Shown piece by piece: positions 6,254-6,500 of a stretch of DNA of 64,000 nucleotides (position 1 is the first letter of the stretch; every line of letters starts with the position of its first letter). The position numbers and the translations under genes are program-made. Source of the stretch: Thermus aquaticus (lineage in GTDB: Bacteria > Deinococcota > Deinococci > Deinococcales > Thermaceae); assembly GCF_001280255.1 (NCBI RefSeq), contig NZ_LHCI01000106.1, positions 1,465,766-1,529,765 on the forward strand, read 5' to 3'. The notes under the pieces are model-generated. The model was given only the letters and a program-made list of their open reading frames with translations, did no database searches and was not told the DNA's origin.

Positions 6254-6299
6254 ATAAAAAGCCCCTTCCCGGCAAGACCGTTCTCTCGCCAAGAAGGGG
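6254..6299 (-). terminator. Intrinsic terminator, expression platform of the SAM riboswitch
   Basis: On the minus strand CCCCTTCTTGGC pairs with GCCGGGAAGGGG around a 14-nt loop and is followed by CTTTTT. It lies between the aptamer and the metY Shine-Dalgarno. Its loop (AGAGAACGG, 6278-6286) is perfectly complementary to CCGTTCTCT at 6456-6464, which overlaps the 5' strand of aptamer helix P1, giving a plausible antiterminator. Confidence 0.85.
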
Positions 6300-6320
6300 T
6301 TGGGCGTGGCGCTTACCCCC

Positions 6321-6462
6321 CTCTCTTATCGTCCCCGGGCGTTTCCCCCGCCCGGGCCGGCGTTGGCACCAGCCCCGCCCGCTTCCGGCCATGGAACGGA
6401 GGGGGCGGGAGGTTGCCGCGGTTTCACAGGGCCGTACCCTCCACCGCTCTGGATAAGAGAAC
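6321..6462 (-). promoter_or_regulatory. SAM-I (S-box) riboswitch aptamer
   Basis: Read on the minus strand it begins CTCTTATCCAGAGCGGTGG, continues GAGGGTACGGCCC, TGTGAAACC and GGCAACC, later shows GGTGCCAA, and closes with GATAAGAG. P1 is CTCTTATC paired with GATAAGAG. These are the conserved blocks of the SAM-I family. The P3 and P4 arms are unusually GC-rich, as expected for a thermophile. Binding of S-adenosylmethionine should stabilise P1 and allow the downstream terminator to form, shutting off metY-metX. Confidence 0.95.
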
Positions 6463-6500
6463 GGGCTGGTTTTGGCCGCGCCCCGGCGCGGTTAGGCCCC

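Follow-up and report, generated by a model that had tools for sequence, protein, structure and literature searches.

The leader of metY and metX

The window, by which we mean the whole 64,000-nucleotide stretch of Thermus aquaticus DNA that was analysed (from a source genome, G000, of 2.25 Mb), carries the methionine genes metY and metX on its minus strand, with a SAM-I riboswitch 5′ of them. By covariance model the metY-metX leader is a member of the SAM-I family, with a full-length match to RF00162 above the gathering score, and an intrinsic terminator lies 3′ of P1 as in the canonical platform. The most likely start of metY is AUG 6216 behind GGGGAAGGAGG. The product of metX exceeded the cut-off of NF001209 and scored 403.8 against TIGR01392, under the cut-off of 500 for that model. 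The features of the locus are given below, where P1* is our name for the helix CCGUUCUCU/AGAGAACGG, chosen because this helix replaces P1 on the 5′ strand.

6501..6529, minus strand: promoter-like site TTGACG-17-TACACT, from sequence
6476..6491, minus strand: leader hairpin CCGCGCCGGGGCGCGG, close to the transcript 5′ end, found by eye
6323..6459, minus strand: SAM-I (S box) aptamer, RF00162, 79.1 bits against a gathering score of 44.4, full length
6456..6464, minus strand: 5′ arm of P1*, CCGUUCUCU, identical in 26 of 26 Thermus loci
6459-6452, minus strand: P1 5′ strand, from the covariance-model match
6323..6330, minus strand: P1 3′ strand GAUAAGAG, from the covariance-model match
6318..6327, minus strand: 5′ arm of the conventional antiterminator, AAGAGAGGGG, from sequence
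6291..6299, minus strand: 3′ arm of the conventional antiterminator, which is the terminator 5′ strand, CCCCUUCUU, from sequence and predicted fold
6278..6286, minus strand: 3′ arm of P1*, AGAGAACGG, at the terminator apex, from sequence and predicted fold
6262..6299, minus strand: intrinsic terminator hairpin, predicted, -28.9 kcal/mol at 37 °C
6260-6256, minus strand: U-tract 3′ of the terminator, which is followed by CUUUUUAUGG
6244..6253, minus strand: GGCCCCUUCC, complementary to the terminator 3′ strand and to the Shine-Dalgarno region, with the same letters as in the Thermus leader L026
6222..6232, minus strand: Shine-Dalgarno-like GGGGAAGGAGG, 5′ of AUG 6216-6214
4951..6216, minus strand: metY, O-acetylhomoserine aminocarboxypropyltransferase, TIGR01326, 634.9 bits (cut-off 495.1)
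3812..4954, minus strand: metX, homoserine O-acetyltransferase, NF001209, 345.4 bits (cut-off 331)

A divergent tRNA gene (6576-6649, plus strand) is found immediately upstream of the riboswitch promoter, and by eye the same neighbour is present in many Thermus genomes. Inspection by eye of other Thermus loci also revealed a comparable promoter layout 5′ of the riboswitch. The strong leader hairpin CCGCGCCGGGGCGCGG is kept, again by eye, in Thermus and in most terminator-type leaders of Meiothermus (genome groups g1 and g4 are those that we take to be Thermus and Meiothermus respectively). Between the antiterminator arm and the terminator lies a stretch that is nearly invariant in Thermus, UAAGCGCCACGCCCAA (6315-6300, minus strand); in the modelled fold it pairs with the leader hairpin, which would give an extra helix outside P1.

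The original prediction was that the terminator loop holds a perfect 9-nt complement of a strand overlapping the 5′ strand of P1, and this complement is indeed seen in the letters of the window. On the plus strand, positions 6456-6464 read AGAGAACGG and positions 6278-6286 read CCGTTCTCT; in the minus-strand RNA, CCGUUCUCU (6464-6456) and AGAGAACGG (6286-6278) form nine Watson-Crick pairs, with a tenth, G-U, if the next base is counted. Of the nine nucleotides, 6459-6456 make up the start of P1 (its first four bases), and the remaining five lie immediately upstream. The term loop applies in part: the segment is at the apex and six of its nine bases are in the predicted terminal loop, but that loop is GAACGG only, and the AGA of the segment lies in a weak inner stem (GAGA/UCUU) of the predicted terminator. 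The apex segment is almost wholly unpaired in the predicted terminators of 16 of the 18 Meiothermus-like (g4) loci.

Three copies of the 9-mer AGAGAACGG are present in the window, counting both strands, where 0.65 would be expected, and two of these are the P1* pair itself. When the downstream region of this locus was put through 300 simple shuffles, one gave an equally good or better partner; the corresponding figure was 0.3-4% at other Thermus loci. The likelihood of P1* arising by chance at a single locus is therefore only modestly low, and the case for it is carried by conservation, covariation and comparison with an outgroup. We also asked whether the loop copies the P1 3′ strand. This was rejected because the apex GAGAGAACGG matches the complement of the P1 5′ strand together with its upstream bases; the P1 3′ strand continues as GAGAGGGG, unlike the apex.

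It had further been suggested that loop pairing takes the place of the usual stem-displacing design. That part is not supported, as the usual antiterminator is also there, both in the window and in Meiothermus. In the window the canonical pairing of the P1 3′ strand with the 5′ strand of the terminator is available, AAGA(g)AGGGG (6327-6318) forming nine pairs and one bulge with CCCCUUCUU (6299-6291), and in Meiothermus the helix GAAGGG/CCCUUC is retained. Relatives usually have at least six conventional pairs, although in single-locus shuffles no more than 16 of the 48 distinct leaders gave p below 0.05. Leaders L033 and L034 returned only four because the strand lies outside the stretch searched by the script; GAAGGGA/UCCCUUC is present in both by eye. 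The choice of U-tract in the full downstream scan gave poorer pairs for L007, L009, L012, L015 and L016 than did an alternative scan. These pairings make P1* a second arm, additional to the conventional antiterminator.

Conservation and covariation of P1* in the family

RF00162 gave 82 matches in 49 of the 50 family genomes, of which 81 were examined; the one left out (G015:C33, 29.9 bits) was under the gathering score. The search for P1* was anchored on the GAAC of the loop and required at least seven contiguous pairs, a threshold that 57 of the 81 riboswitches reached. Two of these, L053 and L058, were dropped as chance-like, since they look like ribosome-site platforms and their near relatives are without a match. 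The 55 retained are terminator-type loci with 7 to 12 contiguous pairs, made up of 50 leaders (26 from Thermus, 18 from g4, three from g3, two from g2 and one from g5) and five leaders of a MetY paralog. All 26 Thermus riboswitches have P1*, the 27 Thermus genomes including one (65% complete) without an RF00162 match, and each of the 18 g4 genomes has one P1* leader. A metY start lies downstream in 46 of the 50. By eye, no intact-looking metY start follows L003 (an altered metY), L014 (another gene), L030 (a broken start) or L080 (apparently metX). The five paralog leaders are in g2 and g3, and the gene that they precede is 46-48% identical to MetY.

A hairpin enclosing the apex segment and followed by U was found at all 55 loci, only enclosing hairpins having been sought, and those picked for L014 and L033 are poor. 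Within Thermus, GGCGAGAGAACGG is invariant in 26 of 26 loci and the 3′ half of the hairpin is variable. The weakest cases are L035, L038, L077 and L079, with only seven pairs each and shuffle p of 0.07-0.14. Among the leaders listed, many platforms without P1* resemble ribosome-site control and not a terminator when inspected by eye; the g4 copy of the MetY paralog likewise has a ribosome-site-like platform and no P1*. In g4 (L066-L080), many aptamers appear by eye to carry a long insertion 5′ of the P1 3′ strand, which causes the family model to end its match too early.

The covariation alignment comprised 21 distinct rows and 11 pairs. Cells changed on both sides numbered 17, against 4.5 in shuffles (0 of 500 as high), and the covariation score was 0.200 against 0.113 (again 0 of 500). 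In register, 86% of cells were paired, compared with 38-62% when the partner was slid, and the observed fit was never reached when loops were swapped among rows (0 of 20,000, relatedness being ignored). Two of the five measures were unremarkable: neither the number of pairs with change on both sides (three; 53 of 500 shuffles as high) nor the number of further pair types (seven; 367 of 500 as high) stood out. Five of the 11 pairs never vary, partly because the GAAC anchor fixes some of them.

Covariation is clearest at position 3 of the P1 5′ strand, which is C in Thermus and others and U in a Meiothermus clade and the paralog leaders, with G or A in the loop to match and one U-G row. In that Meiothermus clade the P1 5′ strand has changed from CUCU to CUUU and the terminator loop from AGAG to AAAG; the P1 3′ strand is unchanged as GAUAAGAG and P1 is left with a G-U pair. 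Across the 21 rows, position 3 is paired with the loop as C-G in 10, U-A in 10 and U-G in one, and within P1 as C-G in 10, U-G in nine and U-A in two. As the loop changed with the P1 5′ strand and the P1 3′ strand did not, the loop tracks the P1 5′ strand better than P1's own partner does. On the MetY tree the position-3 change maps to a single event with 14 descendants and clade support of 100/99, so the covariation rests on few independent events. The paralog leaders show a separate change, a C at the fourth base that faces G in the loop; position -5 is found as C-G, A-U and U-A. From the alignment, the independent covariation events are few, but concordant.

The outer positions bear on a different reading, in which the loop forms a pseudoknot with unpaired bases 5′ of P1 (CCGUU/AACGG) while P1 and the terminator are both formed, thereby tuning the terminated state. 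Five such pairs are possible in Thermus with P1 intact. However, the two outermost are often missing (position -4 is unpaired in nine of 21 rows and -5 in eight), and the best covarying pair lies inside P1, not in the upstream CCGUU. We regard a pseudoknot of this kind as highly improbable.

Modelled energies and the proposed switch

Transcripts were folded at the point where they extend four bases past the apex segment (51 distinct, 23 of them from Thermus), with an energy model that is without SAM, magnesium, tertiary contacts and polymerase. At 37 °C, the fold with P1* was predicted to be better than that with P1 in 42 of 51 transcripts by a mean of -3.3 kcal/mol (-4.5 in the window), falling at 60 °C to only 29 of 51 and a mean of -1.2. 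With the P1 5′ strand held unpaired, leaving the conventional antiterminator only, the fold beat P1 in 4 of 51 at 37 °C and 7 of 51 at 60 °C. Amongst Thermus transcripts P1* won in 16 of 23 at 37 °C, P1 still being better in the other seven, and in 2 of 23 at 60 °C, where P1 was better by 0.8-3.5 kcal/mol in 21; the exceptions were the window and L026, at -1.7. Six leaders were also folded at every third base in eight runs. The advantage of P1* was present by one base past the segment, was last seen 4 to 10 bases past it (7 in both 65 °C runs), and ended before or as the terminator 3′ strand was completed, with a return at 25 in L025.

For the full-length RNA of the window at 37 °C, the terminator fold was ahead of the antiterminated folds by 11 to 17 kcal/mol. 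A margin of this size over both antiterminated folds leaves switching at equilibrium unsupported, and any switching effect must therefore be kinetic. In these models P1* is a candidate for tipping the balance in the short interval after the apex emerges. When the conventional antiterminator alone was enforced, the full-length window fold brought the P1 5′ region into pairing with the 3′ strand of the terminator, at -119.6 kcal/mol versus -113.4 for the antiterminator with P1*. This favours an antiterminated state in which the P1 5′ strand and its upstream bases occupy the 3′ strand and not the loop. Set against it, such pairing needs an upstream AGCCC that g4 leaders are without (by eye), and the terminator 3′ strand is made later than the apex. 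As the antiterminated state we think it very unlikely; as a later fallback it could occur.

A rival account is that the conventional antiterminator alone matters, the loop complement being a functionless inherited by-product. In its favour, the window and most relatives have the conventional helix, which is the known SAM-I mechanism in the available text of PMC3656099, the loop covariation amounts to few events, and the model at 60 °C disfavours P1* in most Thermus transcripts. What this account would leave unexplained is why the loop follows the P1 5′ strand through a change that the P1 3′ strand did not follow, and why the apex is invariant in Thermus when its 3′ neighbours vary. It also sits uneasily with the 37 °C models, in which the fold with the P1 5′ strand unpaired so seldom beats P1, and with Meiothermus, where the conventional helix has 6-7 pairs versus 7-12 for P1*. 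We judge this account unlikely, if the least so of the three alternatives.

Sequence and models together lead us to propose, as the probable reading, that the metYX leader holds a SAM-I riboswitch of the transcriptional OFF type, its platform working by two-sided strand exchange. When SAM is present, P1 would keep both of its strands, the terminator would fold and RNA polymerase would stop. With SAM absent, the tail of the P1 3′ strand would pair with the terminator 5′ strand as the polymerase passes, forming the conventional antiterminator. Next, before the terminator 3′ strand exists, the P1 5′ strand and the upstream GUU (CCGUU in Thermus) would pair with the newly made apex as P1*. Both P1 strands, as well as the stem and loop of the terminator, would then be occupied and transcription would go on; SAM would oppose P1* by holding P1. 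The original prediction had the loop pairing compete with both P1 and the terminator. Its structural side stands: P1* occurs at the apex in 55 terminator-type loci and covaries, and some of its bases also belong to P1 and, at many loci, to the inner stem of the terminator. The regulatory logic, from SAM binding by this leader to the sequence of events and the effect on regulation, is inferred.

Such a design would make termination dependent on both P1 strands, with the loop made before the terminator can close. It may bear on keeping the switch working at high temperature, which the 60 °C model does not show. Riboswitch expression platforms are less understood than aptamers because they are so variable. 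Here, conservation of the platform is sufficient to reveal an aptamer strand covarying with a terminator loop, so that the two-sided strand-exchange model can be tested directly.

Directly after the terminator, GGCCCCUUCC (6253-6244) can pair with either the terminator 3′ strand (6270-6262) or the Shine-Dalgarno region (6232-6222). Over 48 leaders, p was below 0.05 for the first pairing in 34 and for the second in 26, and the Shine-Dalgarno pairing covaries within Thermus (CCAAG/CUUGG, CCAAA/UUUGG, CCCAA/UUGGG, UUCUCC/GGAGAA). Meiothermus has a similar post-terminator arrangement with different letters. If both pairings are real, release of the ribosome site would accompany antitermination; the complementarity suggests coupled control of transcription and translation.

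SAM-I riboswitches outside the family and known systems

One scoring measure was applied to the P1* loci, to other Thermaceae platforms and to an outgroup sample of 78 SAM-I riboswitches from other phyla. Scores of at least 20 were reached by 51 of the 55 P1* loci and 3 of the 78 outgroup riboswitches but by none of the 25 other Thermaceae platforms; for a shuffle p of 0.03 or less the corresponding counts were 51, 8 and 0. A closer inspection of the three outgroup exceptions (L122, L130 and L189) reveals that they are metK leaders whose partner lies 3′ of the terminator, not in the loop; the other 14 of the 17 metK leaders were below 20. In these three, the P1 5′ strand and upstream bases have a partner of 10-11 pairs near metK. 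A simple script assigned a terminator to 71 of the 78 outgroup leaders; in these the P1 5′ region matched that terminator with a score of at most 17.5, and matches of at least 15 fell mostly on its 3′ strand. That a P1 5′ complement is an automatic by-product of the canonical design is not borne out by the outgroup leaders.

From the phylum outside the family 50 matches were taken, several over the cut-off and those below it being left out. In four of the five riboswitches taken from genus g14, which belongs to another family of the order (L087, L088, L090 and L098), a P1 5′ complement, GAGAGAACG or a variant, lies directly 5′ of P1. It would form a 5′ hairpin with the P1 5′ strand, and by eye the terminator loop there is without a complement. 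The fifth, L091, has no such P1 5′ complement at the score used. One might tentatively suppose that SAM-I switching has a second, independent arm in which the P1 5′ strand is captured, and that evolution has sited it variously, in the terminator loop (Thermaceae), in a hairpin directly 5′ of P1 (four of five g14 riboswitches) or beyond the terminator (three of 17 metK leaders in other phyla), although we hold this generalisation to be doubtful. Were it true, the textbook scheme, in which exchange is one-sided and the 5′ strand idle, would fall short for a sizeable share of SAM-I riboswitches.

In the open-licence literature, we found neither a description of pairing between the P1 5′ strand and the terminator loop for a SAM-I riboswitch nor a paper on the mechanism of the Thermus metY riboswitch. 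Strand exchange is termed the most common riboswitch mechanism in the text available from PMC10907184. A close relative in design is Bacillus subtilis yitJ, which, as far as the available text of PMC3656099 goes, likewise has the SAM-I aptamer, a P1 stabilised by SAM, a P1 strand common to the antiterminator helix, and a terminator. In the modelled switching intermediate of yitJ the displaced P1 5′ strand is single-stranded (PMC3656099), and a canonical platform would leave that strand without a partner once P1 opens; in Thermaceae, by contrast, the terminator apex provides that strand with a conserved partner at the 55 loci.

Pairing of terminator loops has been proposed in other systems. In the guanidine-IV riboswitch it is thought to prevent termination (PMC10907184, PMC7736828); as described in the portions of these papers available, the ligand promotes a loop pseudoknot and the gene is on, whereas P1* excludes P1 and is expected without ligand. 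The guanidine-IV pseudoknot coexists with the aptamer, whereas P1* uses bases of P1 itself and encloses P2-P4 as a nested helix. For the candidate fhsA motif, the part of PMC11109978 available proposes that the terminator stem-loop pairs with a preceding hairpin and blocks termination; unlike P1*, this is a speculative pseudoknot unconnected to the P1 of a known aptamer. One platform may also control both transcription and translation (PMC2258182). In the dual platforms described in the accessible text of that paper the ribosome site is inside the terminator, whereas in Thermus metY it is beyond it, with a separate complementary segment between. Capture of the P1 5′ strand by the terminator loop would, going by the sequences compared here, be an addition to the usual design.
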